Assembly (NCBI GenBank): GCA_030680175.1
Contig: JAUXWO010000117.1
Span: 62,001-126,000, forward strand
From: Vicinamibacterales bacterium
Lineage (GTDB): Bacteria; Acidobacteriota; Vicinamibacteria; Vicinamibacterales; UBA2999
Length of the DNA: 64,000 nt
Direction: 5' to 3'
Shown: piece by piece, positions 17,886 through 39,112 of the stretch
How the letters are laid out: each line of letters begins with the position of its first letter
Position numbering within the stretch: the first letter of the stretch is position 1
Program-made: the position numbers and the translations under genes
Notes under the pieces: model-generated
Database searches by the model: none
What the model saw: the letters and a program-made list of their open reading frames with translations, nothing else
What the model was told of the DNA's origin: nothing

Positions 17886-17930
17886 ACGCACCGCACCTGT
17901 GGCACCAGAGGCACCTGTGGCACCCGTAGC
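17886..17930. repeat. Family D short repeat (GGCACCTGT units)
   Basis: GCACCTGTGGCACCAGAGGC-type units span the drmD start and encode its APEAPVAPVA N-terminus. They are the reverse-complement sense of the GGTGCC repeats at 54940 and 59671. Confidence 0.6.
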
Positions 17931-20900
17931 AACCGACCTCCCCCCCACCCCCGGCGAGATCGTCCGCGTCCGCTCGCGGCGGTACCTCGTGGAAGGCGTC
18001 ACGCCTGCCCCCGCGCCGGAGGACCAGACCCTCGTCCGCCTTTCCTGTCTCGAAGACGACGCCGAAGGCGAAGAGCTGGAGGTGCTGTGGGAGAGGGAGG
18101 TGGATGCGCAGCGCGTGAGCGAGGCCGACTGGTCGCGTCTCGCGCAGGGGCAGTTCGATCTGCCGCGCCACTTCGCCGCCTACTACCGCACGCTGCGCTG
18201 GAACACGGTCACCTCCACCGACCCGAAGCTGTTCCAGGCGCCGTATCGCGCCGGGATCCGCATCGACGCCTACCAGCTCGAGCCGCTGCGCAAGGCGCTG
18301 CTGCTGCCGCGCGTGAACCTGTTCATCGCAGACGATGTCGGTCTCGGCAAGACCATCGAGGCCGGGCTCATCGTTCGTGAGCTCCTCATGCGCCAGCGCG
18401 TCCGCCGCATTGTCGTGGCCGCGCCGCCGTCGGTGCTGCTGCAGTGGAAGGAGGAGCTGGACCAGCGCTTCGGCCTCACGTTCGTCGTGCTCGACCGCGA
18501 CTACGTCCGCCGCATGCGCCAGGAGCGCGGCTTCTCGGTGAACCCCTGGGCCACGCATTCGCGCTTCATCGTGTCGCACCACCTGCTGCGCGACGAAGAC
18601 GACGCCTCGCCGCTGCGCGACTGGCTCGGCACGTTCGCGCCGCAGAGCCTGCTGATCCTGGACGAGGCGCACAACGCGGCGCCGGCCAGCGGCGCGCGCT
18701 ACGCCGTGGACTCGCAGTTCACGAAGTCGATTCGCGAGCTGGCGCCGCTCTTCGAGCACCGCCTGTTCCTGTCGGCCACGCCGCACAACGGCCACTCCAA
18801 CAGCTTCTCGGCGCTGCTCGAGATCCTGGACCCGCAGCGCTTCTGCCGCGGCGTGCCGGTGGAGAGCGCAAAGCAGCTGGATGCGGTGATGGTGCGCCGG
18901 CTCAAGGAGGACCTGCGGCGGCTCGAGGGCGGCTTCCCGGATCGGAAGATCGAGGAGGTGGCCATCGACGGCCTGCCCGCGGACGATCCGGCGCTGCTGC
19001 TGCCCGAGCTTCTCGACGAGTATCGCGAGGCGCGCGAGGAACGGCTGAAGGATGCGCCGAAGTCGGTGCAGAACGCGGCGGGCCTCGTGCTGTGCAGCCT
19101 GCAGAAGCGGCTGCTGTCGTCCGTCGAGGCGTTCGCCTGCACGCTCCGCGTCCACCGCCGGGCGTTCGAGGCCGCGGCGGCGAAGGCCGCGCCCGCGCCC
19201 TCGGGCCCCGTGCCGGCCTCGCTCAAGCTGCTGGCCACCACCCCGGATGCAGACGACGACCGCGCGGACGCGTCCGAGGAGGACGTGGCGGAGCAGGAAG
19301 AGGCCGCGATGGAGGCGGCCACGGCGCGCGGGATGACCGGCACGTCCGCCGACGCCTACGCCCGCGAACGCGACCTGCTGGCGCGCATGACCGACGTGGC
19401 CGACGCCGCGCGCGGCCGCGCCGACGCGCGCGTGAAGCACCTGGTGGACTGGTGCAAGGCCAACCCCCACAGCCGTGTGCTGGTCTTCACCGAGTACGGC
19501 GACACCAAGCGTTATCTGGAGCGCCAGCTCCGCGCGGCGCTCACGCCCGGGCAGGAAGCAGATCCGCGAATCGCGACGTTTCACGGCGGCATGGGAGACG
19601 AGGCGCGCGAGGAGGTGAAGCGCGCCTTCAACACCGACCCGGCGAAGCACCCGCTGCGCGTGCTGATCGCCACCGACGCCGCGCGCGAGGGCGTCAACCT
19701 GCAGAACCACTGCGCGGATCTCTTCCACTTCGACGTGCCGTGGAACCCGAGCCGTCTCGAGCAGCGCAACGGCCGTATCGATCGCAAGCTCCAGCGCGCG
19801 CCCGAGGTCCGCTGCCGCTACTTCGTCTACGCCCAGCGTCCCGAAGATCGCGTGCTGAAGGCGCTGGTGGAGAAGACGAAGGTGATCCGCCGCCAGCTCG
19901 GGAGCCTGGCGCCCGTGCTCGAACGGAAGCTCGAGGATCGCCTGAGCGCCGGCTTCGCACGCCGGGACGCGGCGTCACTCGTGCAGGCCATCGAGCACGA
20001 GCAGGTGGACGCCGGGCAGGAGCGCGCGACGGCGCAGGAACTCGAGGCCACGCGCCAGCGCGACCACGAGCTGATGGCGCAGATCTCGGAGCTGGGGACG
20101 CTGCTCGGCAAGTCCCGCGAGTGGCTGCGCCTGGAAGAGCCCGATCTCCGCCAGGCCATCTCGTGCGGCCTCGAGCTGATGGGCGTCGAGCCGCTCCAGC
20201 CGGGCGGGCAGGACGGCGAGTACGCGCTGCCGGACCTGACGAGCCGGCTCCAGGCGAACCCCTCGTGGATGTACACCCTCGACACCCTGCGCGCGCCGCA
20301 GCGCAAGGGGCAGCAGACGTGGGAGTGGCGCCGCCAGCAGCCCGTCCGCCCCGTCGTCTTTCAGGACCAGGGCACGCTCGACGCGCACGCCGTCCACCTG
20401 CACCTCGAGCACCGCTTCGTCCAGCGTCTGCTCGGCCGCTTCCGCTCGCAGGGCTTCACGCTGCACGACCTGTCGCGCGCCTGCATCGGCGTGTCGGACG
20501 ATCCGGTGGCACGTGTCATCCTGCTCGGCCGCCTCTCGCTCTACGGCGAGCGCGCCTCGCGCCTGCACGACGAGATCCTAGCCGTGGCCGCGCGGTGGAC
20601 CGACGGCGCCATCCGCAAGGAGCCGCTCAAGCCCTACGCCGGCGAGACGCTCGACAAGACCATCGGCCTCCTCGAACGCACGCTCAGCCGCAGCGCGCCG
20701 CACGACCTGCCCCCGCAGGTGGTGCAGCGTCTGGCCTCCGGCGCCGTGCGCGACCTCGACGAACTGCGCCCGCACCTGAAGGCGCAGGCCGGGGAGCTGA
20801 CGGCAACGGCGACGAAGCAGCTCACCTCGCGCGGCGACAAGGAGGCCGCCGAGATGCGCGCCATCCTCGACGCTCAGCGCGCGCGCATCCGGAAGACGCA

Positions 20901-21114
20901 GGAGGGGAAGGAGAAGCAGGCCGACCAGCTCCCGCTCTTCGCCGAGAGCGAGCGCCGGCAGATCGAGGCCGACACCCGCTACTGGCAGAAGCGCCTGGAC
21001 GAACTCGGCGGGGAACTCGACACCGAACCCGAGCGCATCCGCCGCAGCTACGACGTCAAGGCCACCAGGTTCGAGCCTGTGGGCCTGGTATATCTCTGGC
21101 CCATCACCGGATAG
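17899..21114 (+). CDS. drmD: DISARM SNF2-like helicase DrmD (class 1)
   Basis: A 1071-residue SF2/SNF2 ATPase. Motif I is DDVGLGKT (145-152), motif II DEAHN (255-259), motif III LSATPHNGHSNSF, and motif VI QRNGRIDRK (from 622). DrmD marks class 1 DISARM (drmD and drmMI plus drmA, drmB, drmC), a multi-gene anti-phage system that methylates self DNA and blocks incoming DNA. The C-terminal 350 residues are helical, with a charged region ending near the SNF2-associated domain. The start GTG at 17899 lies inside a family D repeat, so the first 10 residues are uncertain. Confidence 0.9.
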   Translation: MAPEAPVAPVATDLPPTPGEIVRVRSRRYLVEGVTPAPAPEDQTLVRLSCLEDDAEGEELEVLWEREVDAQRVSEADWSRLAQGQFDLPRHFAAYYRTLRWNTVTSTDPKLFQAPYRAGIRIDAYQLEPLRKALLLPRVNLFIADDVGLGKTIEAGLIVRELLMRQRVRRIVVAAPPSVLLQWKEELDQRFGLTFVVLDRDYVRRMRQERGFSVNPWATHSRFIVSHHLLRDEDDASPLRDWLGTFAPQSLLILDEAHNAAPASGARYAVDSQFTKSIRELAPLFEHRLFLSATPHNGHSNSFSALLEILDPQRFCRGVPVESAKQLDAVMVRRLKEDLRRLEGGFPDRKIEEVAIDGLPADDPALLLPELLDEYREAREERLKDAPKSVQNAAGLVLCSLQKRLLSSVEAFACTLRVHRRAFEAAAAKAAPAPSGPVPASLKLLATTPDADDDRADASEEDVAEQEEAAMEAATARGMTGTSADAYARERDLLARMTDVADAARGRADARVKHLVDWCKANPHSRVLVFTEYGDTKRYLERQLRAALTPGQEADPRIATFHGGMGDEAREEVKRAFNTDPAKHPLRVLIATDAAREGVNLQNHCADLFHFDVPWNPSRLEQRNGRIDRKLQRAPEVRCRYFVYAQRPEDRVLKALVEKTKVIRRQLGSLAPVLERKLEDRLSAGFARRDAASLVQAIEHEQVDAGQERATAQELEATRQRDHELMAQISELGTLLGKSREWLRLEEPDLRQAISCGLELMGVEPLQPGGQDGEYALPDLTSRLQANPSWMYTLDTLRAPQRKGQQTWEWRRQQPVRPVVFQDQGTLDAHAVHLHLEHRFVQRLLGRFRSQGFTLHDLSRACIGVSDDPVARVILLGRLSLYGERASRLHDEILAVAARWTDGAIRKEPLKPYAGETLDKTIGLLERTLSRSAPHDLPPQVVQRLASGAVRDLDELRPHLKAQAGELTATATKQLTSRGDKEAAEMRAILDAQRARIRKTQEGKEKQADQLPLFAESERRQIEADTRYWQKRLDELGGELDTEPERIRRSYDVKATRFEPVGLVYLWPITG

Positions 21115-21198: not shown

Positions 21199-24100
21199 GT
21201 GTCCACCACCTCCCCCGAGCTCGCCGCGCACAAAGAGTGGCTTGGCCAGATCCAGCAGATCGGCCTGGTCGTCTCTCCGCACGTCCTCGTGCGCCACGGC
21301 GTCGGCCTCGACCGCCGGAAGAGCGTCGAGGTGCAGGAGCGTCTAAACGAGCTCGCGGTGGAGGACCCTTCGACTTCGCTCAGGGCGGGCGATGGCGTCC
21401 GCGTGGACGACTTCCTGGCGCTCGCGCGCGGGGTCTTGGAGTGGTCGGACGGCTACCTGCTGGGCGCCCCCGGCGCGCCCGACCTCCCGGGCACCCTGAA
21501 CGTCGCCCTCCCGGAACACGACGACGTCCTCTCGCCCACGTACGCAGTTCCCGCTCTCGGCGACACCGAGACAACCGGCTCCGAAGCCACCGCGAAGCCC
21601 CTCGCCCTCATCCAGGTAGTCGATTCCGGCACCGACCTCGACAAACCCCCGGCCACCACTCCCCAGCACCGCGGCTGGCGCGCCGCCCCGCACGCGCGCC
21701 TCGAGCGGCTGCTGCGCGAGACCGAGGTCCCCGTCGGCCTCCTCTTCAACGGCGCCGCGCTCCGCCTCGTCTACGCCCCGCGCGGCGAATCCTCCGGCCA
21801 TCTCACCTTCCGCATCAAGGACCTCACCCAGACGCTGGGCCGTCCCATGGCCGGCGCGCTCTTCGCGCTTCTCGGCAGCCCGCGCATTCTCGACGGCCTG
21901 CCCGAGCCGCAGCGTCTGCCGGCGCTCCTCCGCGAGAGCCGCAAGTATCAGAACGAGGTCTCGACGAAGCTGGCCGGCCAGGTGCTGGAGGCGCTGTGGG
22001 ATCTCGTCCGCGGCTTCCAGCAGGCCGACGATGCGGCGGAGGGGCGGCTGCTGGCGGAGGCGCTGCGGGAGCAGCCGAAGGACGTCTACGGGGGCCTGCT
22101 CTCCACGCTGATGCGCCTCGTCTTCGTCCTCTACGCCGAGGACCGTGGCCTGATGCCGGCCGGCGACGTCTACCAGCGGCACTACAGCGTGTCGGGCCTC
22201 TTCGAGCGGCTGCGAGAGGACGCCGCGCGCTACCCCGACACCATGGACGCGCGCTACGGCGCGTGGGCGCAGCTCCTGGCGCTCTTCCGCCTGATCCACG
22301 ACGGCGGCGGCCACGGTGGGCTTCGCTTCCCGGCGCGTCACGGCCGCCTCTTCGACCCCGACGCCTATCCCTTCCTCGAGGGCCGCCCCTTCGGCACGAG
22401 CCGCGTCCTCGGCGACCCGGTCGATCCCCCGCGCGTGGCCGACGGCGTCGTCTTTCGGGTGCTGCAGAACCTGCTGATGCTCGACGGCGAGCGGCTGTCG
22501 TATCGCGCGCTCGACGTGGAGCAGATCGGGTCCGTCTACGAGGCCATGATGGGCTTCGCCCTCCAGCAGGCCGGCGGGCCCTCCATCGCCCTCGCCCCCA
22601 AGCACATCGTCATCAGGCTGCGGGATCTGCTGGAGCAGACGCCGAAGGAGCGTGTCCAGTGGCTCCAGAAGCAGGCCGAGACCAAGGTGACGGGCGACGC
22701 GCTGGCAAAAGCGGCGACACAGGACGAGGCGCTGGTGGCGCTCGGCAAGCGCGTGTCGCGCTACACGCCGCACGTGCTGCCGGCGGGCGCGATGTACCTG
22801 CAGCCCACCGAGGAGCGCCGCCGGTCGGGCTCGCACTACACCCCGCGTTCCCTCACGCAGCCCATCGTCGCGACGACGTTCCGGCCCATCCTGGAGCGGC
22901 TGGGCGAGCGGGCGACGCCGGAGCAGATTCTGGACCTGAAGGTGTGCGACCCGGCGATGGGGTCGGGCGCGTTCCTGGTGGAGGCGTGCCGGCTGCTGGC
23001 CGACCGGCTCGTGAAGGCGTGGGATGTGCACGGGCGCACGCCGAAGAACATCCCGGACGACGAGGACGTGTGGACCTATGCGCGGCGGCTGGTGGCCGAG
23101 CGGTGCCTGTACGGCGTGGACCGGAACGTCTTCGCCGTGGACCTGGCGAAGCTGTCGCTGTGGCTCGCCACCCTCGCGCGCGACCACCCGTTCACCTTCC
23201 TCGATCACGCGCTCCGGCACGGCGACTCCCTCGTGGGGTTGTCGCGCGAGCAGATTGCATGCTTCCACTGGGAGACCGGCAAGCAGCTGCCGATCCTGCG
23301 CAGCCTGATCGACGCGCGCGTGAAGGAGGCGCAGGCCCTGCGCGAGCGCATCCAGGGCCTGGCGGCGTCCGACGACGTGCCCGAGAAGGCGCGGCTGCTG
23401 CGGGAGGCGGAGGAGGCGCTGGCGGACGTCCGCCTGATCGGCGACCTGACGGTGTCTGCCTTCTTCGAGCGTGAGAAGCCGAAGGACCGTCAGACGCTGC
23501 GCGTGGCGTATTCGGGCAAGGTGGAGAGATGGCTGGCCGCGCGTGACGGCAACGGCTCAGCGGCCAGCGCACGGCCTGCGCCCGACGAGCGGATGGATGG
23601 GCTGACGCCGTTCCATTGGGAGGTCGAGTTCCCGGAGGTCTTCACGCGCGAGGACGGCGGGTTCGACGCCTTCGTCGGCAACCCGCCGTTTGCAGGCAAG
23701 AACACCCTCAGCGCATCGAACGTGTCGAACTACCTCCCGTGGCTGCTGCAGCTCCACGAGGAGAGCCACGGCAACGCGGATCTTGTCGCGCACTTCTACC
23801 GGCGCGCGTTCAACCTGCTGCGCCGCAACGGCGCGTTCGGATTGGTGGCCACCAACACCATCGCGCAGGGTGACACGCGCTCGACGGGGCTTCGCTGGAT
23901 CCGTCTGCACAAGGGAACCATCTTCGCCGCGACGAAGCGCCGCAAGTGGCCCGGCGAGGCCGCCGTCGTCGTGTCCGTCGTCCACGTGCACAAGGGCGCG
24001 CTTCCCGGGCCGTTCGACCTGGACGGCCGTACCGTGGATCTCATCACCGCGTTTCTGTTTCATGCAGGCAACGACGAGGACCCCAAGCCGCTGGCCGAGA

Positions 24101-25164
24101 ACGCCGGCAAGAGCTTCATCGGCAGCTACGTCCTCGGCATGGGCTTCACCTTCGACGATACCGACAAGAAGGGCGTTGCCAGCCCACTCTCGCTGATGCA
24201 GGAGCTCACCCGAAAGAATCCCCGCAATGCCGAGCGGATTTTTCCTTACATCGGCGGCGAGGAGGTCAACGACAGCCCAACGCACGCGCACCATCGGTAC
24301 GTCATCAACTTCGGGCAGATGTCGGAGGAGGAGGCGCGGCAGTGGCCAGACTTGATGACGATCGCTGAGGAGAAGGTGAGACCGGAGCGCGAGAAGCTCG
24401 GCGACAACCCGGACGCGAGGCGTCGCAAGCAGCAGTGGTGGCAGTGGGGGCGCTACACGCCCGCATTGTTCGAGGTGCTCCGCGACCTCGACCGTGTGCT
24501 GGTGACAGCGCGTGTCTCCCAGCACTGGTCGCCGGCATTTCTTGCAGCCGGCCCTGTCTTTTCCGAGCAGCTCGTAATCTTTGCCTCATCGTCGAATGCC
24601 ATCTACGCGTTACTCCAATCGCGCTTGCACGAGAGTTGGTTCCGATTTTTCGGCTCCTCCCTCGAAGAGCGCCCACGCTATACACCGGGAGACTGCTTCG
24701 AGACCTTTCCGTTCCCATCCGCTTGGGAGTCGAACGAGCCCGCCGAGCAGGTCGGCCGCGAGTACTACGACTTCCGAGCGGCACTGATGGTGCGGAATAA
24801 CGAGGGCCTGACGAAGACGTACAACCGCTTCCACGACCCCGACGAGCGCGATCCGGACATCGTGAAGCTGCGCGAGCTGCACGCCGCCATGGACCGCGCC
24901 GTCCTCGACGCCTACGGCTGGACCGACCTCCAGCCCACTTGTGAGTTCATCCTCGACTACGAGGACGATGACGACGCCGAGCCCGGCAAGCCAAGCAAGA
25001 AGAAGAAACCCTGGCGCTACCGCTGGCCCGATGAGATCCGGGATGAGGTTCTGGGCCGGCTGCTGGCACTGAACGGCGAGCGTGCCGCGGCCAGACAGGG
25101 CACAGTGCGAGAGGGAACGACGAAGAAGCGAGCGAAGCGAGCGACAACTCCGCTGCTGGATTGA
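21199..25164 (+). CDS. drmMI: DISARM adenine-N6 DNA methyltransferase DrmMI
   Basis: A 1321-residue class 1 DISARM methylase. AdoMet-binding motif I is DPAMGSGAF (584-592) and catalytic motif IV is NPPF (828-831), the adenine-N6 type. Long N- and C-terminal regions probably hold target recognition. In DISARM it marks host DNA so the restriction arm ignores it. GTG 21199 is the start, directly after a family B repeat. Codons for DPSTSLRAGDGV near residues 56-67 come from an inserted dispersed element. The locus then breaks: drmA does not follow, and six unrelated genes intervene. Confidence 0.92.
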   Translation: MSTTSPELAAHKEWLGQIQQIGLVVSPHVLVRHGVGLDRRKSVEVQERLNELAVEDPSTSLRAGDGVRVDDFLALARGVLEWSDGYLLGAPGAPDLPGTLNVALPEHDDVLSPTYAVPALGDTETTGSEATAKPLALIQVVDSGTDLDKPPATTPQHRGWRAAPHARLERLLRETEVPVGLLFNGAALRLVYAPRGESSGHLTFRIKDLTQTLGRPMAGALFALLGSPRILDGLPEPQRLPALLRESRKYQNEVSTKLAGQVLEALWDLVRGFQQADDAAEGRLLAEALREQPKDVYGGLLSTLMRLVFVLYAEDRGLMPAGDVYQRHYSVSGLFERLREDAARYPDTMDARYGAWAQLLALFRLIHDGGGHGGLRFPARHGRLFDPDAYPFLEGRPFGTSRVLGDPVDPPRVADGVVFRVLQNLLMLDGERLSYRALDVEQIGSVYEAMMGFALQQAGGPSIALAPKHIVIRLRDLLEQTPKERVQWLQKQAETKVTGDALAKAATQDEALVALGKRVSRYTPHVLPAGAMYLQPTEERRRSGSHYTPRSLTQPIVATTFRPILERLGERATPEQILDLKVCDPAMGSGAFLVEACRLLADRLVKAWDVHGRTPKNIPDDEDVWTYARRLVAERCLYGVDRNVFAVDLAKLSLWLATLARDHPFTFLDHALRHGDSLVGLSREQIACFHWETGKQLPILRSLIDARVKEAQALRERIQGLAASDDVPEKARLLREAEEALADVRLIGDLTVSAFFEREKPKDRQTLRVAYSGKVERWLAARDGNGSAASARPAPDERMDGLTPFHWEVEFPEVFTREDGGFDAFVGNPPFAGKNTLSASNVSNYLPWLLQLHEESHGNADLVAHFYRRAFNLLRRNGAFGLVATNTIAQGDTRSTGLRWIRLHKGTIFAATKRRKWPGEAAVVVSVVHVHKGALPGPFDLDGRTVDLITAFLFHAGNDEDPKPLAENAGKSFIGSYVLGMGFTFDDTDKKGVASPLSLMQELTRKNPRNAERIFPYIGGEEVNDSPTHAHHRYVINFGQMSEEEARQWPDLMTIAEEKVRPEREKLGDNPDARRRKQQWWQWGRYTPALFEVLRDLDRVLVTARVSQHWSPAFLAAGPVFSEQLVIFASSSNAIYALLQSRLHESWFRFFGSSLEERPRYTPGDCFETFPFPSAWESNEPAEQVGREYYDFRAALMVRNNEGLTKTYNRFHDPDERDPDIVKLRELHAAMDRAVLDAYGWTDLQPTCEFILDYEDDDDAEPGKPSKKKKPWRYRWPDEIRDEVLGRLLALNGERAAARQGTVREGTTKKRAKRATTPLLD
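21366..21391. repeat. In-frame dispersed element in drmMI (STSLRAGD type)
   Basis: CCCTTCGACTTCGCTCAGGG is a partly palindromic short element that I recognise from many GC-rich genomes and metagenome assemblies, where it is translated as STSLRAGD or similar. Here it keeps the drmMI frame open. Confidence 0.55.
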
Positions 25165-25581
25165 TGCACTTGTTGCGATTAGGCGACCAGGATTTGCCGC
25201 GGCAGGGCGAAAGTAAGGCGTTGCCAGGGAGATTGTTCCAAAGACAGGGAACGCGAGGTCTTGAACCCTCCATGCAAAGCGACTACTCAGCGGTGAAGTT
25301 GCCCAGAGCTATCGAAACCGTGCCCGAACCCGCCACTGGCGAGAGCGGTCCCCTTCAAAGGAATCCTGAGTCCATAACGTCAGTGCCAATTTCGGACGCG
25401 ACAGTGTGACTGTTGTTCAAGCGTCACTAGCAGTGGTCTCCACCAATGGCCGTTGATGTCGTAGACAACGCCAGTAGAATGCCCCATGTGAACGCACTTC
25501 TGGGGTCGGACAAGGCGCTGGGCGGCAACGAATGGCGCCGCACATCCATAGGATGTTAGGCAGACCGGGCGAGGTATCAGG
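25165..25581. other. Intergenic junction between drmMI and the inserted gene block
   Basis: This 417-bp stretch has no convincing gene. GC content falls from the drmMI level partway through. A GTTAGGC heptamer occurs at 25555-25561, just before the first inserted gene, but I find no partner core site for an integron attC. A promoter for the inserted block could lie here; no clear hexamers were found. Confidence 0.5.
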
Positions 25582-26472
25582 ATGACTGAATCTCAGAATC
25601 TCAAGGCAATCTTCAAGGAAGCTGCTGATATCGCGGCGCAGGTTCCCGAATCGCTCCGTCAGGTTGCCTTCCAGAGGGCCCTGGACGCGTTACTCAACGT
25701 GGCTCCACCTCCTGCCCGCCGCGCCGCCGAAGACGAGAGGACAAACGAGAGGCAGAACAGCGGCAATACTGGGCCCCGACAGCAGGAACGTGGAAGCCAC
25801 TCCGCTTCGGTAACTGCGCTTCTCGAGATGCTCGATCGAACGGAACTTGCTGGGCTGCTGCGAGGGCGGAAGGTCCTCGACCGTTCTCTGCTCCTGCTGC
25901 GTGCCGCCCAACATCACGACATTGACGCCCTGACCGCGGCGGACATTGCCCACGTGCTTGCGAAGAAGTTCCGGGAGCCGACAGCTGCCAGCGCGGTGAG
26001 GATGGCGCTTGATCGCAGCCCGAGTTACACCGATAGACGCCCGAATGGTGGGACCTTTTTCTATTCGTTGATGGCTCCAGGCGAGGCGTACCTGGCCAGT
26101 CTCGCTGACCCTCAGGTCAAGCCCGCCCGCCCGTCATCGTCGCAGTTACGACGGAGGAGGGCGAAGCCCAAGGGAGCAACAAAGAGCGCGTCTTCGCCTA
26201 GAGCGGCAGTGCCCTCGTCATCTAAACAACGGCGAAAGCGTTCTGCAACAGCAGGCCGGCCAGGCCCGAAGGCCGCCCTTGAGTCGTTGCTCACCGAGGG
26301 ATTCTTCTCGGAGCCACGCATCATGTCCGAAATCCTGACGTACCTTCAGGTTGAGAAGACGTTCGCCTACAAGACGAGCGACATGACCGCGACTCTGCAA
26401 AGACTCGTTCGTCAGGGGCACCTCACTAGGTCGCGAAATGCCGAAGAACAGTTCCAGTACACCGCAAAGTAG
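25582..26472 (+). CDS. Unknown protein with two winged-helix-like segments (first gene of the nested block)
   Basis: A 296-residue protein I cannot assign to a named family. There is an N-terminal helical segment (about 5-40), then a possible winged helix around 115-175 (LTAADIAHVLAKKF...SPSYTDRR...FFYSLM). A very basic linker of about 55 residues rich in Arg, Lys, Ser and Pro follows, and then a second winged-helix-like C-terminus (PRIMSEILTYLQ...TSDMTATLQRLVRQGHL). The layout suggests nucleic-acid binding. ATG 25582 is preceded by CAGG 6 nt upstream. Its last 35 bp overlap the next gene, which points to coupled translation and a functional pair. Confidence 0.6.
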   Translation: MTESQNLKAIFKEAADIAAQVPESLRQVAFQRALDALLNVAPPPARRAAEDERTNERQNSGNTGPRQQERGSHSASVTALLEMLDRTELAGLLRGRKVLDRSLLLLRAAQHHDIDALTAADIAHVLAKKFREPTAASAVRMALDRSPSYTDRRPNGGTFFYSLMAPGEAYLASLADPQVKPARPSSSQLRRRRAKPKGATKSASSPRAAVPSSSKQRRKRSATAGRPGPKAALESLLTEGFFSEPRIMSEILTYLQVEKTFAYKTSDMTATLQRLVRQGHLTRSRNAEEQFQYTAK

Positions 26473-27232
26473 TCCGGCCCTAGAGGCCGCCCTCCGCGGT
26501 GTGCCTGAGCCCTTTCGGACGAAGATCATTTCCCAGTATTTGGGCATGCGGGACGCGTTCGTGTCTTCGGACCACGACGCTGTGGGCCTGCGGAGCGGTG
26601 TCTTCGCTGAGGTTGTCTTGCGCCTGCTTCAGGAACAATTGACCGGCACGCACATCCCTTTTGGCTCTCGGCTTCCGACCTTTGATGCCGAGTGCTTGCG
26701 GCTGCAGAACCTCCCCAAGACGGCGGGCCACGAAAGCCTTCGCCTCGTAATCCCGCGCGCTCTCGTGTTTCTCTACACGATTCGGAACAAGCGCGGGATA
26801 GGACATGCCGGAGGTGAGGTGGAAGCGAATGCCATCGATGCAGCTACTTGCGTCAGGGTGTCTGACTGGTGCCTGTGCGAATTGCTTCGCATGTATCACA
26901 GCCTCTCACTGGAGGAAGCACAATCCCTGCTTGACGCGATCGCCGTTCGCGCAGTGCCGGTGGTATGGCTAGTCAACGGGCGAAAGCGAGTGCTTGACAC
27001 GTCGCTGGACTATCGGAGCCAGGCGCTTGTCCTTGTCTATTCGTCTGGAGAAGACGCTGTACTTGAGGAAGACCTGCGCGGATGGATTGAGTATCCACAG
27101 GTGTCGCGGTTCAGAGAGCGCGTCCTGAAGCCGCTGCATTCGTCGCGCTTGATTGAGTGGGATAGGGAACTCGGCACTGTCTCGCTCTCACCCACGGGCG
27201 TCCGAGAGGTGGAAACACGCATTCTCGTGTAA
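26438..27232 (+). CDS. Unknown protein with an HEPN-like RX6H motif (partner of the preceding gene)
   Basis: A 264-residue protein. The central helical part (about 20-165) carries R116-N117-x5-H123 in RNKRGIGHAGG, which fits the RX4-6H signature of HEPN ribonucleases, where a polar residue usually follows the Arg. The C-terminal 80 residues look like a winged helix (VLEEDLRGWIE, RLIEWDRELGTVSLSPTG). The start codon lies inside the upstream gene (35-bp overlap). An abortive-infection RNase is a reasonable guess, not shown by the sequence alone. Confidence 0.55.
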   Translation: MPKNSSSTPQSSPALEAALRGVPEPFRTKIISQYLGMRDAFVSSDHDAVGLRSGVFAEVVLRLLQEQLTGTHIPFGSRLPTFDAECLRLQNLPKTAGHESLRLVIPRALVFLYTIRNKRGIGHAGGEVEANAIDAATCVRVSDWCLCELLRMYHSLSLEEAQSLLDAIAVRAVPVVWLVNGRKRVLDTSLDYRSQALVLVYSSGEDAVLEEDLRGWIEYPQVSRFRERVLKPLHSSRLIEWDRELGTVSLSPTGVREVETRILV

Positions 27233-27283
27233 TGGCGACGGAGTGTGCGAGCTAGACATTACGACGAAGTTGAAAGGATCACT

Positions 27284-28009
27284 GTGGCTGCAAAGCCTTG
27301 GACCTACGGCCCGAAAGAGCTCCTGGAGCATGCGCGAGATCATCTGGCTGGCACAACAGCCTTTGACTACCGCATCGCAATGATTAGCGTCGACAACGCA
27401 GTCGAGCTCGCCATCAAGACCTACCTGGGGCTGCCGATTCGCGTGCGCGGGACCGCCGGGCCACCGCGCAAGGTTCTTCAGGCGGCCATGGGCTTTCCGG
27501 ATCTACTCGACTTGCTTGAGAAGTACGGTGGCGACAGGCTGCAGGGAATCGAGCTGGCTGACATCGAGTGGTATCACCGCGTGCGCAACACCCTTTATCA
27601 CGATGGAAACGGCGTTACGGTGGACCCACAACAAGTGGACGCCTACAATCAGATCGCGAATCTGCTGTTTCAGAATCTGTTTGAAGCTTCCGTCACGCCT
27701 GAAACCGGGCCACCCGCAGCTACGATCCTGGGTGAGTTTGTGTTGAAGTGGGCGGCACTCGAGACGCACATTAGGTCTTTGGCGGCCAAGCATCTGCCCA
27801 AACGGACACCCGCGGCGCACTCGGCTCTCAGCCTATATGATGGGTTGATCGCGAAGGGTGTTGCAACGCCGACAGTCCGGAGCAAGTTCGAGAAGCTCCT
27901 TCAGAAGCGCAATGCCGTGCTGCATGGGGTGATGACACTTCCCGCGTCCCAGCTGAAGGAACTGATCTCAGCAGCCGACGAGATTCTCGGAACGTTGCCC
28001 CCAGCATGA
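27284..28009 (+). CDS. Protein with two HEPN-like RX4H motifs
   Basis: A 241-residue all-helical-looking protein. I choose the GTG at 27284 because GAAAGG lies 6 nt upstream; a GTG at 27245 gives 13 more residues. Two copies of the HEPN signature are visible: R101-N-T-L-Y-H106 and R209-N-A-V-L-H214. The sequence before each (ISVDNAVELAIKTYLGLP; LKWAALETHIRSLA) fits the first HEPN helices, so this looks like a tandem HEPN protein. Such proteins are usually metal-independent RNases or nucleotidyltransferase partners. No MNT partner is adjacent. Confidence 0.6.
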   Translation: MAAKPWTYGPKELLEHARDHLAGTTAFDYRIAMISVDNAVELAIKTYLGLPIRVRGTAGPPRKVLQAAMGFPDLLDLLEKYGGDRLQGIELADIEWYHRVRNTLYHDGNGVTVDPQQVDAYNQIANLLFQNLFEASVTPETGPPAATILGEFVLKWAALETHIRSLAAKHLPKRTPAAHSALSLYDGLIAKGVATPTVRSKFEKLLQKRNAVLHGVMTLPASQLKELISAADEILGTLPPA

Positions 28010-28148
28010 GGCTCTTATCCGAGCCAGTCTAGCCAGCGTTTACAGCCGCCGGCGGCGGACTCTTGTGACACAAATCCGCGCCGACGGCCGCCGCGGCTGA
28101 GGCGCGGTCGTTGATACTCCTATCCGGTTCCAGGACTCTGGGGGGGCA

Positions 28149-29711
28149 GTGATCGCATCACACAACCAGATCTACTTTTCCGATGCGTTTAGAGTCGCCA
28201 CCAAGACCTTGGAGGAATACGGCGCTTTCGATGTGTCGCTGATCAACGATCTCCCATTGTTCATTGATCCATTTCTTCTTTTCAACAGCGACGCCCCCAC
28301 GTATCGACGTCTTCACGATCAGATCATTGAGTACCTGCGCTTCCTACGCGACAAAGCTGGTGCTGGACCAGTTCCTGAGGGATTGCTGCGCGCTTGGTTT
28401 ACGTTCCCCGAAGTGCGACAGAACTGGTTGGGATACTCCTTGAGTGGCAACCGGGGCTCCGGGCTTGGGCTCGACTTCGCCAAAGGGCTGGCCCGCAATC
28501 TGTCGACGTTGTTTCACTCCTTCGGAGCTGAGACCGTGACATTGGGGAGCCACCTCGAGAAGCTGTGCCTGATCGCCGATGGCGTCGGGCGCGACAACAT
28601 CAGCGACTTCACAACGAATCTCATCAAGAACTATCTCCTGGAGTACACGCAAGAGTTCGCGCGGGCCCACCTGCTACCTGAGCAGCGACGCGTTGTGCCC
28701 GTCCGGAAAACCGTGTTCAACTACGAAACTGAAACGTGGGAAACACGCCGATTCGACCTTCCCTTCGTTGGGGGTGACTACGTCATCTTGACGCCCATGG
28801 ACCTCCTCACGAAGGAAGACATTTGGATCAACAGGCCGGACCTGATTCGACAGTACCCCTACGTCGTTGCCGCCGTTCCCAACGATCAACTGCGGGAACA
28901 GCTCAACAACTACCTCAGCGGTGTGCTGACCCGGATTCTAGAGCGCGACGACAGGACCCGGCGCGAGAAAGAAGGTGGGCCAGGTCGGCGCAGGGGACGT
29001 CGACGACCCGCGCAAGACAGGCAGCCCACAGCCAAGCAGGCGTCGGAGGCGATCGGCGCGCTGGTCCACGCTCATCCGGAGTTCATTGACTACTACATTC
29101 GCTACAAGGAAGACCACGGAGATGAAGCAGCCGCCCAGGCGGACGTCAGGGTGCGCGCGTCAGAGCGCCTCTACATCCAGCAGGTCAGGGCACTGGTGTC
29201 CAACCTGCAAGCCTATACTGAATTCTATGCCTATCCTGGAACGACTCTGGACGAGGCCAGGCGGCGCGTCGCGTTTTTGAAGGACGTCATCGAGAACAAG
29301 GGAGGCTGGCGCATCTTCTACGTCGACGGGCAGCCACTCAGGCGTGAGTCGGACCTGCACATCATGTTTCGTCTCACATGGTGCAACACGCCGTCAGACG
29401 TCAATCGAGAGGTCAACAACGGACGCGGTCCGTCCGACTTCGAGGTGTCGCGAGGACGCTTCGACAAGTCGCTCGTCGAATTCAAGCTCGCCAGAAGTAC
29501 TTCATTGGCCAAGAATCTGGTCCACCAAGCAGAGGCCTACCAGAAGGCCAGTGACGCACAGCACGCGCTGAAGGTCATAGTGTATTTCACTCTGGCTGAT
29601 GAGGAGCGCGCGCGGCAGGTCCTTACGGGGCTCGAGCTCTACGGGCATCCAGACATCGTACTGATCGACGCGAGGGATGACAACAAGCCTAGCGCCTCGA
29701 AGATCGGGTAG
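28149..29711 (+). CDS. Large protein with C-terminal PD-(D/E)XK nuclease signature
   Basis: A 520-residue protein. The N-terminal 270 residues are of unknown fold (FSDAFRVATKTLEEYGAFD, FIDPFLLFNSDAP). A basic Gly/Arg-rich linker follows at about 275-300, then a helical region. The C-terminal domain has D430 in PSDFEVSRG, E444-F-K446 in LVEFKLA and a following helix with HQAEAYQKA, the arrangement of PD-(D/E)XK nucleases. It is probably a DNA-cleaving effector. The start GTG at 28149 follows a G-rich stretch; an internal start is possible. A 139-bp gap separates it from the gene before. Confidence 0.65.
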   Translation: MIASHNQIYFSDAFRVATKTLEEYGAFDVSLINDLPLFIDPFLLFNSDAPTYRRLHDQIIEYLRFLRDKAGAGPVPEGLLRAWFTFPEVRQNWLGYSLSGNRGSGLGLDFAKGLARNLSTLFHSFGAETVTLGSHLEKLCLIADGVGRDNISDFTTNLIKNYLLEYTQEFARAHLLPEQRRVVPVRKTVFNYETETWETRRFDLPFVGGDYVILTPMDLLTKEDIWINRPDLIRQYPYVVAAVPNDQLREQLNNYLSGVLTRILERDDRTRREKEGGPGRRRGRRRPAQDRQPTAKQASEAIGALVHAHPEFIDYYIRYKEDHGDEAAAQADVRVRASERLYIQQVRALVSNLQAYTEFYAYPGTTLDEARRRVAFLKDVIENKGGWRIFYVDGQPLRRESDLHIMFRLTWCNTPSDVNREVNNGRGPSDFEVSRGRFDKSLVEFKLARSTSLAKNLVHQAEAYQKASDAQHALKVIVYFTLADEERARQVLTGLELYGHPDIVLIDARDDNKPSASKIG

Positions 29712-29833
29712 TCCCGCGGCACGAGGAGCGCCAGCATGACACGCTTACAGCTGACGGCAACCCGATGGGTCATTAGTTGACGGCGGCTGAAGCCTTCTTC
29801 GCGAATGGTGGGGGCTTGTGGTGGCGCCGATAG

Positions 29834-30475
29834 ATGGTCAGAATGCGTCGCATGCATCCCCTGACCTTGCCGCAGCTCTACGACGTGCACGACGCGATTC
29901 TTGGCAACGCGCGCAGCTTGATCGCCGATGCGGAGTTGCTGGAGTCGAAGGGACGATTCGCCAGGGCGTTCTCACTCGCGGTGTTGGCTTGCGAGGAACT
30001 GGCAAAGTCAATGTTTGTCAATCAGGCGTGTGTAGCGGTCGCCCTGGGGCGGGATGTCGATTGGACCACCCTCGGACTGTGGCTCAGGCAGCACGGCAGG
30101 AAGTTGGCAGTGATGCGTCTGCTTGACGTCCTTTCCAGTCCAGACGACGCCAGGAGCACATTGTTTCTCGAGAAGGTAGAATCGGAAACGCTGATCGCGC
30201 ATCCGTCTGAGATCAACATCGCGAAACAAGACGGCTTTTATGTCGATATCTCCGACGACGGCACTGCAATCGTTCCTGCCGAGGTCGTCGCCGACGGTGA
30301 TGCCCGGGCTGCAATCGAGCTGGCGGGTCGAGGGCTTGCGCTTTTCGAAGAAGCCACCCATGAAACGCGCCATCTGCTGCGCAAGCCCCAGCACTACGCG
30401 GAACGGGTGGAAAGAATCCGAGTGAGTCTTCGACCGATAATCGGGCAGTTGAAGACCATGCTCGGTGACAACTAA
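29834..30475 (+). CDS. AbiV-like abortive infection protein
   Basis: A 213-residue protein resembling the AbiV family: DAILGNARSLIADAELLESKGRFARAFSLAVLACEELAKSM (first helical hairpin, residues about 18-60) followed by LRQHGRKLAVM. AbiV of Lactococcus arrests phage translation, and the family is placed in the HEPN clan. The classical RX4H is not obvious here, so it may act by binding rather than by RNase activity. ATG 29834 is used; the ATGs at 29846 and 29855 are alternatives. Confidence 0.65.
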   Translation: MVRMRRMHPLTLPQLYDVHDAILGNARSLIADAELLESKGRFARAFSLAVLACEELAKSMFVNQACVAVALGRDVDWTTLGLWLRQHGRKLAVMRLLDVLSSPDDARSTLFLEKVESETLIAHPSEINIAKQDGFYVDISDDGTAIVPAEVVADGDARAAIELAGRGLALFEEATHETRHLLRKPQHYAERVERIRVSLRPIIGQLKTMLGDN

Positions 30476-30671
30476 CAGTCAATATGGCGCGTCGACACGA
30501 TCGGATAGGGGCCACATCGATCCAGCACTGCTTGTGAGTGCACGCTCAGTTGTTCGACACGGCTCGGGACGGCGGCACTTCGCCGAGCGGAAAGTGGCTC
30601 GCGCGACTGATTCGGGAGTACTGAACTGCTGCTACGGACGCGCGCGTCGCTCGGCGCGTCGGGGAAGAGGC

Positions 30672-32942
30672 ATGACCGACGACTCCGCTGATCGCGCGAG
30701 GCGTATAGTGGCCATGGAGCGCGCCTTTGAGCAGCTCAAGAAGAAGCGTGCGCGGTTATTGTTCGAACCCGAAACTAGGCTGGCCGTTCGTGCATCTCGA
30801 GAGTTGCTCGTCGCTGCAGAAGAACTCAGAGCCTATGATTCCGGTGGGCGACGTCTGCGCAATGTCCACTATGCTCGATATCTTCTGGCCACTTCAGAGT
30901 GCATTCACGCAGAATTGCATGGCCGGTTTGACGATGCCACACAGCACCTACTAGTGGCCATCGAGATGGCCCACCTCCTCGACAATAGTCCGCGCTTCTT
31001 TCCAAACTACTGGACGGACCGCGTCGAACTCGAATCGCACGCACTCTACCAAGATGCGGTTCTGGCATTCAAGAATGGGCGCTTTGCTAAGGCAGCGCTT
31101 GACTTTGACCGATGGCTTACTGCCAACAGCCATCTAGCCAGAAATGGGCTAACGCGATACGACAGCAACTACTTCCACAAGTACCTGTGTCTCGCAATCG
31201 ACGCGTTTGAGCAGCGCCGCGAGTGCTCGGCGCCACTGAGTGCCGCTGCGGACGTCTTGGCCGATCCACAGCTCAGTATTCATCGACTGTCACGAGCCCT
31301 TTGGAACCATATAGAGCCACTGCGTGCATTGGCGGGCGGCGCGCTCTGGTCTGAACCGCACGCAAGCGAGCTAAGCGCAACGCTTCTCGATAGAGCCCGA
31401 GAAGAATGGAGGCTGCTGCTTCAGGGAGCGCGGCTCAAGCGTCGGGACCGTGGTGCAAGCCTTGCGGAGCCAGTGCGACTGCCGCTGTTCTTGGACTTCT
31501 CTCAGGAGCTCAACATAGAAGACGACTACTGGCGTTTTGTGCTGCTGCAGGCCCTCCGGAACGCACTAATGTTGAAGGCGGATTACGAGTCGAAGCTCCA
31601 TCCCAGGTTGAAGCGCCGGAGCGACGATGGCACTGTCGTGCTCAAGTCTTGTGAGATCGAGCATTTGGAAGTCGACGCGGCCATCGCCTATATCAAGAAG
31701 CTGGTTAAGGCCCGACAAGCGATCGACTTTGAAATAATGGAGAGAGTGCTTCCCTCTTGGTTCGACGCGCGGGATGCTGCCCTAAGCGGTGATTTCGGAT
31801 TCGCCATGCGTGCATATGTCGCGTTTTTTTCACAGTTGCGCTCGCTGCCTCATGTTGTTCGCGTGAACGCTTCGTTCCGCACATCTGGTGAGGTGGACTC
31901 CGCATGGAGAGATGCGCGCCCTTCCTATCAATTCACAGCCGAACGCGTGTGGCAGTGTGTGCCGCGCACACTGGTTGGAACCACGTCCAGCACGCCGCCA
32001 TCCATCGGCTACGCTTACATGCGCCCCAGATGGAACAAGAATCTCAAGGCGCAAGCACATATTCGAAACCCCATGCTCGACTCCCCCATGTCGGCGCGGA
32101 TGCCCGAATGGATGGCTCTATTCGAGCGATGGGTCAAGGGACACGGACCGGTGGACGCAAACCGATTTGCGAGATGGTGCAGCCAGATGCCTGCGCGGTG
32201 GCTACCTGTTGCGCTCCGTTTGTTGACACAGGTCATCTTTGTGGATGAACCGACAACTAGAAAGCTATGGCGCACGCTTTTTACGGAGCAAGTACCGGAT
32301 CTCTTGAGAACGAGAAGCGTCACGTTTGTCGGTCTCGGCGAAGCCGGCAAGAGCGGTCCTGCACAAATGTACTGGCTCAAGCAGGCACTGTCGGAATTGC
32401 CACCTGCGAAATCGACGATCAATGTGCGAGCGGCTTTTCGCTCAGAGGCGAGCCTCGGACAATTGGAGGACACCATAGAGCTGGTTGTGTTCGTTGACGA
32501 TTTTGTCGGTAGTGGCTCACAAGCGAAGGCTTTCCTCGGTTCGCTTGTGACGAAGTATCCAAAGCTCAAGACGCGCTTGTTGTTTCTTGCCGCGTTGGCA
32601 GGTTTCGACACAGGGGTCGAAGAAGTGAAGCGTGGCGTTCCTGGCTCAGTAATCGTGCCCCTGATCGGGCGAGTATTGAACGACTCGCATCGCGCCTTCT
32701 CTCCGGCAAACAGTCTATGGGATTGTGACAACGATCGACTGATTGCTCGTGAGTGGTGTGAGAACGTCGGGAAACAACTAGTATCAAGTATGGGACTCGA
32801 TCAGAAACATGCGCTGGGCTGGGAAGGCTCTCAGGCGATGATCGCGTTCCACTACAATGTCCCGAATAACACTCTACCGCTCTTCTGGGGAAGTGGGCAG
32901 GTAGACGGTCGACGCTGGGAGTCACTATTCGACCGATTCTAA
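30672..32942 (+). CDS. PRTase-CE-like phosphoribosyltransferase-fold protein
   Basis: A 756-residue protein. The ATG at 30672 is chosen because GAAGAGG lies 2-3 nt upstream; an upstream in-frame extension to 30465 overlaps the AbiV-like gene and looks non-coding. Residues 1-500 are mostly helical and repeat-like, with no named domain. The C-terminal part has the PRPP-loop pattern of phosphoribosyltransferases, VVFVDDFVGSGSQA (D609, D610, S614, G615). Members of this group (PRTase-CE) have been proposed by genome-context work to be immune-system components; their reaction is not known to me. The gene has low GC and many codons ending in A or T. Confidence 0.65.
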   Translation: MTDDSADRARRIVAMERAFEQLKKKRARLLFEPETRLAVRASRELLVAAEELRAYDSGGRRLRNVHYARYLLATSECIHAELHGRFDDATQHLLVAIEMAHLLDNSPRFFPNYWTDRVELESHALYQDAVLAFKNGRFAKAALDFDRWLTANSHLARNGLTRYDSNYFHKYLCLAIDAFEQRRECSAPLSAAADVLADPQLSIHRLSRALWNHIEPLRALAGGALWSEPHASELSATLLDRAREEWRLLLQGARLKRRDRGASLAEPVRLPLFLDFSQELNIEDDYWRFVLLQALRNALMLKADYESKLHPRLKRRSDDGTVVLKSCEIEHLEVDAAIAYIKKLVKARQAIDFEIMERVLPSWFDARDAALSGDFGFAMRAYVAFFSQLRSLPHVVRVNASFRTSGEVDSAWRDARPSYQFTAERVWQCVPRTLVGTTSSTPPSIGYAYMRPRWNKNLKAQAHIRNPMLDSPMSARMPEWMALFERWVKGHGPVDANRFARWCSQMPARWLPVALRLLTQVIFVDEPTTRKLWRTLFTEQVPDLLRTRSVTFVGLGEAGKSGPAQMYWLKQALSELPPAKSTINVRAAFRSEASLGQLEDTIELVVFVDDFVGSGSQAKAFLGSLVTKYPKLKTRLLFLAALAGFDTGVEEVKRGVPGSVIVPLIGRVLNDSHRAFSPANSLWDCDNDRLIAREWCENVGKQLVSSMGLDQKHALGWEGSQAMIAFHYNVPNNTLPLFWGSGQVDGRRWESLFDRF

Positions 32943-33008
32943 TGGAAGACGTTCCGTAAGCTGTGGGGGCGTCCGGTGGCGGAGTACCGGTGTGCTTCCC
33001 TGAATCAG

Positions 33009-33032
33009 AGGCCCGCGTTGTGAGCCGGGCCT
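33009..33032 (+). terminator. Possible terminator hairpin after the nested block
   Basis: AGGCCCG (33009-33015) and CGGGCCT (33026-33032) form a perfect 7-bp stem with a 10-nt loop, 67 bp after the PRTase-like gene. There is no T-run, so intrinsic termination is uncertain. Confidence 0.4.
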
Positions 33033-33081
33033 AGGATCCAGAGCACCTATGTTCACGCGTCCTCACTCTGGCTTGGCCGTC

Positions 33082-33087
33082 TACAAT
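33082..33087 (+). promoter_or_regulatory. Possible -10 element of drmA
   Basis: TACAAT lies 8 nt before the drmA ATG. A start at the usual distance would give an almost leaderless mRNA. No convincing -35 is present. Confidence 0.3.
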
Positions 33088-33095
33088 AGCGTGCG

Positions 33096-36000
33096 ATGAA
33101 CGCCGCGGAAATCAGAGCCAGGCTCACCCGTGCGCTGTGGCTCGATCTCGTGGGCCCTGCCACGGGCGAACTACAGGCGGCCGAGGTCATCGATCGCCCT
33201 CCCTCCCGGTGGTACCTCACCGGCTTCCTCGTTCCCTGGAACGCCCCCGCCTCGCAGAAGGCGGATGACGATGCGCAGGATGAACTCGACCTGTCGCCTG
33301 CCGGCGGGAGCGGTGACGAGGACGAGGCGACGCCGGAGCCCCAGGCCGCGCGCCGCGGGCACTTCCCGTCGTCGATCGGCCTGAGCGTTCTCGTCCCGGA
33401 AGGCCTCACCGAGCTGCGCGTCACCGCGCGCTGGGGGGACTACGCCCCGGTGGAGAAGAACGGCGAGCCCACGGGCGAGTGGCAGCGGACAGAGCGGCAG
33501 GAGACCTTCCCGGTTCGCCTCCCGGACGACAGGGCAGGCCGTCAGGCGACGCCGGTGCCAGGCAGCCACGGGCTCGAGGTGGTGACGTCCGTGCGCGCCA
33601 TCCGTCGAACCGGGGATCTCCGCGGCCTGCCTGCCCGGACGCGCGCCGTGGCCGTGTTCCTCGTCAACCGGCGCGAGCCGCTCGAAGGCGCCGGCGACCT
33701 GAAGGACACGGTGTTCGCGTTCCAGACGACGCTCACCGTCGAGTCCGACCGCCCGTTCGTGCCGCGGCCCAACCCGCGCGGCCGGGACGGCAGCGACGCC
33801 GACGAGCGGATCGCCGAACTCCAGTACCGCGACGCCGTGGAGTACGCCGTCGGGCACGGCACGTCCACGCACGCCCCCGTCGTGAACGGCGAGTGCCGGC
33901 GCGTCGAGACCACGTGGATGCCGCAGGCCCAGGTGGAGCGCGTCGAGCCGGCTTCGTTTCACGGCGTGGAGCTCGGCATGCAGGCACTCGCCGATGCGTC
34001 CGACGCGGCTTCCCTCCGCGCGTCGCTCGGCGGCCTCGTGTCCCAGTACCGCGACTGGATCGCCGCGCAGCGCAAGAGCGCGCCGGCCGACGGCCCGCAG
34101 GGAGAGGTGGCGGCGGAGCTGCTGCAGGGCGCGGCACGTGCGGCCGACCGCATCGAGGCGGGCCTCGCGCTGCTCGACGATCCGCTGGTCCTCGACGCGT
34201 TCCGCCTGGCGAACCGCGCAATGGCCATGGCCGGACGCCAGCGCCGTGCCCAGGAGCGTGGCATCGCCCCGGACGCAGTCGAGGCGCAGCAGTGGCGGCC
34301 GTTCCAGCTCGCGTTCGTCCTGATGAACCTGCGCGCGTTCGCCGAGCCCACCCACACCGACCGTGCGCTGGTGGACCTGCTCTTCTTCCCCACCGGCGGT
34401 GGCAAGACCGAGGCCTATCTCGGCCTCGCCGCCTTCGCCATCGTCCTCCGCCGGTTGCGGGAGCCAAGGCTCACGTCGGCGGGCGTCACGGTGCTGATGC
34501 GCTACACGCTGCGCCTCCTCACGCTCGACCAGTTGAGCCGCGCGTCCACGCTGGTGTGCGCGCTGGAGCTGGTGCGGCAGGAGATGCCCGATCGCCTCGG
34601 CGCGTGGCCGTTCGAGATCGGGCTGTGGGTGGGGAAGGCCGCCACGCCGAACCGCATGGGCCGAAAGGGCGAGAAGGATCGGACGACGGCGCGGGCGAAG
34701 ACGATCAACTACAAGAACAACAGCCGCAAGGCGTCGCCCATCCCGCTCGAGACGTGCCCGTGGTGCGGGGGCAAGCTGAAGCCCGACTCCTTCCAGCTCC
34801 TGCCGACGGCCGACGAGCCCACGGACCTGCGGCTGTACTGCCTCGCGCCAGGCTGCGTGTTCAAGAACAGGAACCCGCTGCCGGTGATCGCCGTGGACGA
34901 GCCGCTGTATCGTCGCGTGCCGTGCTTCGTGATCGCCACGGTGGACAAGTTCGCCAGCCTGCCGTGGGTGGGCGCCAGCGGGGCGCTGCTCGGCGGCGCC
35001 GACAGCCACGACAAGGCAGGGTTCTACGGGCCGTGGCAGCCGCACACGGGCCAGAAGCTCCCCGCATCGCTCGCGCCGCCGGATCTGATCATCCAGGACG
35101 AGCTGCACCTGATCTCCGGACCGCTGGGGACGATGGCGGGGTTGTACGAGACGGCGATCGACGCGCTGTGCACGAGGAGCGTGGATGGGCACACCGTGCG
35201 TCCCAAGATCATCGCGTCCACGGCCACCGTGCGCCGCGCCGATGCGCAGGTGCGCGCGCTCTTCGCGCGGCCGCGCGTCGAGGTGTTCCCGCCGCCAGGG
35301 CCAGACAGGCACACGTCGTTCTTCGCCGAGACCGTCGCGCTCGACAAGCAGCCGGGGCGGCTTTACCTCGGCGTGGCGGCGCAGGGGCGCAGCCTGAAGG
35401 TGGTGCTGCTGCGCACGTACCTGGCGCTGCTCGCCGCGGCGCAGAAGGCATGGCAGGAGGCGGGCGGCACGAAGAACGCAGCGAACCCCGCCGATCCCTA
35501 CATGACGCTGCTCGGCTACTTCAACAGCCTGCGCGAGCTGGGCGGCAGCCGGCGGATCGTGGAGGACGAGGTGTCGTCGCGCGTGGCGGCATACGGCGAC
35601 CGGCGGCGCGTGGGCGAACAGGACAGCAGCTTCGCGAGCCGGCAGGTGGCCCGCGAGGTGATGGAGCTGACCTCGCGCGTGCCGACCAACGAGGTCTCCG
35701 AGACCAAGCGCCGGCTGGCGCTCCCGTTCGCCGAGAAGGAACGTGTGGACGTGGCGCTCGCCACCAACATGATCTCCGTCGGTCTCGACATCACGCGGCT
35801 GGGGCTGATGGTGGTGCTCGGCCAGCCGAAGGCCGCCGCCGAGTACATCCAGGCCACGAGCCGCGTCGGCCGCGACCGCGCGAAGCCGGGCCTGGTCGTC
35901 ACGCTCCTCAACATCCACCGGCCGCGCGACCGCTCGCACTACGAGCGCTTCGAGGCGTTCCACGCGTCGTTCTACCGTGCGGTGGAAGCCACCAGCGTCA

Positions 36001-38329: not shown

Positions 38330-39112
38330 ATGGCCCTCTTCGGCACCGCGTCTGCCTCCACGCTTCGCATGGTGGCCGGCGCCCTGCGCGCCGGGCATCT
38401 TGGCGTGCCGCTGACCCGCTTCGCCATCGAGCGCGTCGCCTCGTGCCCGCCGGAGGTGGTGACGACGATGGTGGCGCTGGCGGGGGAGGGGATGGCGCCG
38501 GCGCATCTGGCGCTGCTGCTGGACGAGGCCGCTGCCGCCGCGGAAGCCGCGATGAACGGGCAGACCTTCACGGAGCTCGTGTGGACCGGGCCCGAGGGCA
38601 CCGCGTCCCACAGCCGCGACACCGCGGTCGTGGTGGAGGAACTCTTCGCGCGGGCCGAGCGGAGCGTGCTGGTCAGCAGCTTCGTGGTGCGTGGGGGCGC
38701 CACCGTGTTCAAGCCCCTTGCGGCACGCATGGCCGAGCGGCCCGAACTGCACGTCCGCCTGTTCCTGCACGTGGGCCGGGAGTGGAAGGACACGCGCGAC
38801 GAGTCGGAGCTGCTGCGCGAGTTCGCCGCGGCGTTCGCGTCGCAGTGGAAGTGGCCGCAGCGTCCCGAGGTGTTCTACGATCCGCGCACGGTGGCCGCCG
38901 ACCCCGCCGCCCGCGCCGCGTGGCACGCCAAGTGCGTGCTGGTGGACGACGAGCTGGCGTTCGTCACCTCCGCGAACTTCACCGAGTGGGCGCAGCAGAG
39001 GAACGTCGAGGCCGGCGTCCTCGTGCGCAGCCGGCACCTGGCCGGGCAGCTGCGCGGCCAGTTCGAGGGGCTGGTGCAGACGAAGCAGGTAAGGCGGTTG
39101 CCGGGGTTCTGA
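38330..39112 (+). CDS. drmC: DISARM phospholipase-D-fold protein DrmC
   Basis: A 260-residue PLD-superfamily nuclease-like protein with a single HxKx4D motif at H199-K201-D206 (WHAKCVLVDDELAFVTSANFTEW). It is therefore expected to act as a dimer or to use a degenerate second half-site. DrmC is the least essential DISARM subunit in published work. It closes the drmABC cluster. A GGGGACAGTCCCC palindrome follows 6 bp after the stop codon. Confidence 0.9.
   Translation: MALFGTASASTLRMVAGALRAGHLGVPLTRFAIERVASCPPEVVTTMVALAGEGMAPAHLALLLDEAAAAAEAAMNGQTFTELVWTGPEGTASHSRDTAVVVEELFARAERSVLVSSFVVRGGATVFKPLAARMAERPELHVRLFLHVGREWKDTRDESELLREFAAAFASQWKWPQRPEVFYDPRTVAADPAARAAWHAKCVLVDDELAFVTSANFTEWAQQRNVEAGVLVRSRHLAGQLRGQFEGLVQTKQVRRLPGF

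Follow-up and report, generated by a model that had tools for sequence, protein, structure and literature searches.

An overlapping gene pair, P1 and P2, lies within a class 1 DISARM operon of a Vicinamibacterales bacterium (assembly GCA_030680175.1, contig JAUXWO010000117.1, positions 62,001 to 126,000; these 64,000 nt are referred to below as the window). The pair is real, conserved, and uncatalogued in the libraries searched. We give an even chance to the reading that P2 is a HEPN RNase effector controlled by the co-translated, winged-helix-like P1, the two forming a toxin-antitoxin-like conflict module used in defense, for which we infer the RNase activity, the neutralization, the trigger, and the anti-phage function. 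The genes are co-directional (Table 1), and a plausible AGGT ribosome-binding sequence is present just 5′ of the P2 ATG start. The 35-bp overlap named in an earlier, sequence-only reading of this DNA was found again at the same coordinates, a figure that hinges on the start codon because an alternative GTG start is located at position 26501, 3′ of the P1 stop. The same reading knew of no named family for the pair, which holds for Pfam, NCBIfam, PHROG, and PADLOC, where no model covers P1 or P2 at cut-off. P2 had no match at the limits used in Pfam, PADLOC, and PHROGs and a spurious one in NCBIfam (E 0.12); P1 had no match in PADLOC, NCBIfam, or PHROG.

Table 1. Features of the P1-P2 pair and the surrounding DISARM island, in window positions
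Feature	Position	Strand	Description
McrBC-like pair	14353-17831		Directly upstream of DISARM
DrmD	17899-21114		PADLOC
DrmMI	21199-25164		PADLOC
Cassette	25165..33095	+	Six lower-GC genes between drmMI and drmA: P1, P2, tandem-HEPN-like gene, PDC-M36A, AbiV, PRTase-CE
P1	25582..26472	+	Upstream partner, 296 aa, winged-helix-like (ORF)
P1 residues 92-175	25855..26106	+	First winged-helix-like part; sequence pattern only, no significant match
P1 residues 176-235	26107..26286	+	Very basic linker; 17 K/R and 2 D/E in 60 residues
P1 residues 226-296	26257..26469	+	Second winged helix ("GFFSE" type); Penicillinase_R and L028a likeness
P1 end/P2 start	26438..26472	+	Overlap, 35 bp
P2	26438..27232	+	HEPN-like domain and C-terminal winged helix, 264 aa; predicted effector
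P2 residues 24-155	26507..26902	+	HEPN-like four-helix core; AF2 of domain, pLDDT 53, four main helices
P2 E58	26609..26611	+	Invariant acidic residue, helix 2
P2 RNKRGIGH	26783..26806	+	R116-X6-H123, end of predicted helix 3
P2 residues 190-264	27005..27229	+	MarR-like winged helix; sequence and fold matches
Gene after P2	27245-28009		Two Rx4H motifs, RNTLYH and RNAVLH; weak PADLOC RTasHEPN match, E 0.0018
PDC-M36A-like gene	28149-29711		Candidate defense gene; also phrog_30194, E 8.6e-31
AbiV	29834-30475		Pfam E 4.8e-29
PRTase-CE protein	30465-32942		825 aa; last 255 residues PRTase-CE, E 9.5e-39
DrmA	33096-36491		PADLOC
DrmB	36491-38326		PADLOC
DrmC	38330-39112		PADLOC

The sequence-only reading had overlooked that P1 and P2 are cargo inside the DISARM operon, which was delineated with PADLOC models and is preceded by a McrBC-like pair, an association described previously (PMC11090510). 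The two genes open a six-gene cassette whose GC content (0.57 to 0.61) differs from that of the DISARM genes (0.69 to 0.73); no exact repeat of ≥9 bp common to both cassette ends was found. Judging from its two motifs, the product of the gene after P2 may be a tandem HEPN protein, and the first ∼560 residues of the PRTase-CE protein had no Pfam match. In a genome of the same order, L115, whose DrmA is 74% identical, different genes, including a PDC-M30A-like gene, are located upstream of drmA, and we interpret the drmMI-drmA gap as a slot for cargo within DISARM. The location of the pair between drmMI and drmA would also be expected if P1 and P2 were an accessory part of DISARM itself, but this is extremely improbable given the stand-alone homologs without adjoining DISARM genes, the gene content of L115, and the GC difference, on which grounds membership in DISARM proper was rejected. 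Nor did the pair behave as a constant class 1 component, as no Drm match was obtained for it. A tRNA-Asp predicted at 37591-37672, inside the drmB reading frame, is probably a false call.

The RX6H motif RNKRGIGH, which the sequence-only reading had singled out in P2, is present at residues 116 to 123. Taken alone the motif proves nothing because 1.7 RX4-6H matches are expected by chance in a protein of P2-like composition and 2 were observed; RNKRGIGH is the only one of the two that is conserved in the family, and at the level of the alignment this conservation makes the motif real. Among the 12 members of the P2 family, whose identity falls to about 20%, E58, Y113, R119, H123, D134, W144, E148, and R151 are unchanged in 12/12, and R116 is kept in 10/12, being replaced by alanine in two related homologs (L015 and L028). 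The invariant arginine of the motif is R119, rather than the R116 named previously, and R119 may share or replace the role of R116. As far as can be judged from sequence, the conserved residues of P2 match the published description of HEPN domains, in which a polar residue follows the motif arginine, the motif stands at the end of helix 3, an acidic residue is found in helix 2, and a variable insert separates helices 2 and 3 (PMC3710099). In P2, R116-N117...H123 supplies R-X4-6-H with the polar residue after the arginine, and E58, located in a predicted helix of residues 46 to 69, supplies the acidic residue.

AF2 models of P2, built on two sequences, reached a pLDDT of 48 at full length and of 53 when restricted to residues 15 to 171; in the latter, at this pLDDT of 53, the predicted helix order agrees with HEPN. 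HEPN chains, recognized by title, made up 18 of the 50 VIA matches to the isolated-domain model, with Z of 5.0 to 8.2 (Csm6, 8.2 and 8.1; LsoA, 7.2; ST0689, 7.1; AF0298, 7.1; AbiV, 6.4; sacsin, 6.4; HepT, 6.1); helical bundles commonly give Z below about 13. Because such values are common, and because the scores of hemerythrins and designed bundles against this domain are similar to those of HEPN chains, the evidence is the over-representation of one superfamily and not the Z itself. Foldseek ranked Csm6 first and ST0689 fourth for the same domain, neither significantly. With the full-length model, no HEPN appeared in the VIA list and Foldseek returned chance-level matches; the viral fold library yielded nothing. 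Comparison of P2 with HepT and DUF4145 by hhalign was not significant (P about 0.07), in a test that gave just P 0.007 between two accepted HEPN families. No Pfam match was obtained for the window P2, and the best HEPN match in any family member had an E of 0.07. Abi_C was also a candidate because of its RNKxGxGH-like motif.

The earlier view of P2 as a HEPN-like protein is favored by the conserved residues, the helix order, and the HEPN over-representation among isolated-domain fold matches, and is tempered by models of low confidence. That the helical domain is unrelated to HEPN, with the RX6H motif and the fold matches arising by coincidence, would be compatible with the nonsignificant profile comparison, the pLDDT of 53, and the similar scores of hemerythrins and designed bundles. 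We consider this quite improbable, given the strong HEPN over-representation in the fold matches and a motif whose residues never vary at the places expected of HEPN.

The C-terminal winged helix proposed for P2 is backed by both profile and fold alignments. A family profile of residues ∼180 to 258 matched mostly IclR, MarR, NmtR, FUR, and eS19 in the PDB, nearly all of them winged helices (best E 0.043), and many MarR-type chains align to residues 157 to 264 of the full-length model. Individual family members matched MarR (up to E 0.009) and HVO_A0261_N (E 0.001), all below curated cut-offs. From these predictions, P2 looks like a HEPN-like helical domain joined to a MarR-like winged helix. 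For P1, two winged-helix-like parts joined by a very basic linker had been described. The composition of the linker agrees with this description, and the second part is weakly favored by a Penicillinase_R-like match over residues 248 to 295 (E 0.0081, below cut-off) and by its resemblance to L028a, a separate small gene beside a P2 homolog (hhalign P 2.6e-4); the first part remains a sequence pattern. No nucleotidyltransferase match was found in P1 or its counterparts.

Homologs of P2 were detected in 10 of the 396 same-phylum genomes, this one counted (∼2.5%), as well as in a Phycisphaerales MAG (best segment, 49% identical), in one more genome of that MAG's phylum, with a truncated copy in another, and on a plasmid of the archaeon Natronomonas. 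No relative was found in viral contigs (five scans) or phage records, and a phage origin is unsupported within the reach of these searches. Of the 11 members with upstream sequence (the window included), 10 possess a small co-directional upstream ORF whose end falls anywhere from 15 bp short of P2 to 35 bp within it; the two overlap in 8. The eleventh, L017, has a partner-like ORF ∼590 bp upstream, behind an apparent degenerate second P2 start, and the archaeal copy has a candidate partner downstream, interrupted by an insertion sequence; insertion sequences adjoin several P2 copies. The partners have in common their small size and winged-helix-like patterns, and several carry an N-terminal IxVxGxExF. 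Across groups, P1 had no detectable homology to the other upstream partners, except for that between its second winged helix and L028a. Most P1 proteins paired with different P2s likewise have no detectable homology to one another, which leaves one conserved role for all partners at most presumptive. A distant P1-like gene without any HEPN gene occurs in three genomes of one family.

The layout had been likened to a toxin-antitoxin or sensor-effector pair. Its co-translated arrangement is strongly supported, with the small partner first in a compact co-directional pair (≤15 bp in 10/11, 8 overlapping), and it is the function of the pair that we infer. HEPN RNases are dimers and cleave RNA without metal. 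In the toxin-antitoxin-like reading, P2 would be a HEPN endoribonuclease that needs no metal and carries a fused MarR-like winged helix, and P1, translated just before P2 from the same transcript, would bind P2 or its promoter and keep P2 quiet. Infection or loss of P1 would free P2, which would then dimerize, bringing its paired R-N-K-R-X3-H sites together, and the dimer would cut cellular or phage RNA, stopping growth. The winged helix of P2 would aid dimerization or nucleic acid binding, and P1, made first and translationally coupled, would be the restraint or sensor of P2. The DISARM setting, together with the adjoining AbiV and PRTase-CE genes, makes anti-phage use of the pair at this locus likely. 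One P2 homolog is located three genes upstream of a TIR-TM defense gene. In six genomes, the pair lies among ordinary genes outside any defense island, and these fit an addiction-like module as well.

The pair could also serve as a defense sensor and effector rather than as an addiction module, in which P1 would use its winged helices to sense a nucleic acid or protein of the phage and then turn P2 on, with no neutralization at rest. The P1 proteins are highly variable beside a conserved P2, as would be expected of a sensor, and HEPN-like proteins other than P2 are also preceded by a P1-type protein (L096, 5627-6352; L015, 11046-11885). Partner-first order and overlapping frames are, however, classic for antitoxins, and the lone pairs outside islands resemble addiction modules, so we regard the sensor-effector arrangement as unlikely. 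Catalysis may be absent altogether. Inactive MtlR has been proposed as a HEPN-like nucleic-acid-binding regulator, and P2 might similarly be such a regulator carrying a winged helix, with P1 as its co-regulator. The winged-helix-like parts in both proteins and the loss of R116 in L015 and L028 would suit such a pair, but the invariance of H123, R119, and the acidic residues would be needless in an inactive domain and no conserved target gene is found beside the pair, which makes a noncatalytic role rather improbable.

Bacterial immunity relies on HEPN RNases as major effectors, and few two-gene partners of these RNases are known. P1-P2 varies the known HEPN two-gene theme; as a compact, widespread pair with a different regulator type, it offers a small testable system, and it enlarges the known cargo of DISARM islands. 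It is possible, if somewhat doubtful, that the winged-helix partner, which changes fast, acts as an exchangeable control unit for at least three different HEPN effectors (the P2 type, the L015 winged-helix/HEPN protein, and the L096 DUF4145-like protein), which would constitute a modular, so far undescribed class of HEPN immune pairs.

When the literature was searched for a winged-helix/HEPN gene pair already described, only HEPN-MNT, CoCoNuT, and fused forms came up. The HEPN-MNT (HepT-MntA) type VII toxin-antitoxin system is likewise a compact two-gene module with the regulator first and the HEPN RNase second, but its partner is a nucleotidyltransferase rather than a winged-helix-like protein, and P2 differs from HepT in its additional C-terminal winged helix and in the nonsignificant profile match. 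Membership in HEPN-MNT was rejected because P2 has no MNT partner. CnuE of CoCoNuT resembles P2 in uniting HEPN with a winged helix in a single effector and in its proximity to McrBC systems, whereas its winged helix is N-terminal and it is encoded with the helicase CnuH; that of P2 is C-terminal, without a helicase partner (PMC11090510). Membership in CoCoNuT was rejected given the reversed domain order and the absence of a helicase gene beside stand-alone P2 homologs. AbiV, an abortive-infection protein of HEPN fold that is also encoded in the cassette, has the fold match to the P2 domain noted above, but there is no sequence match between the two, and the H of RX4-6H is usually missing from AbiV (PMC3710099). 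DUF4145-type HEPN proteins of restriction-modification operons are similarly embedded in defense operons, but compare with P2 at P 0.07 only and differ in motif context and partner.

Two related gene neighborhoods were also observed. In L096 (5627-6933), a P1-type gene overlaps by 4 bp the winged-helix/DUF4145-like HEPN gene that it precedes (DUF4145 E 0.027). In L015 (8809-12792), two successive partner/HEPN pairs, in the second of which a P1-type protein precedes an RNGCGHP protein, are followed by a TIR-TM defense gene (E 6.5e-61).
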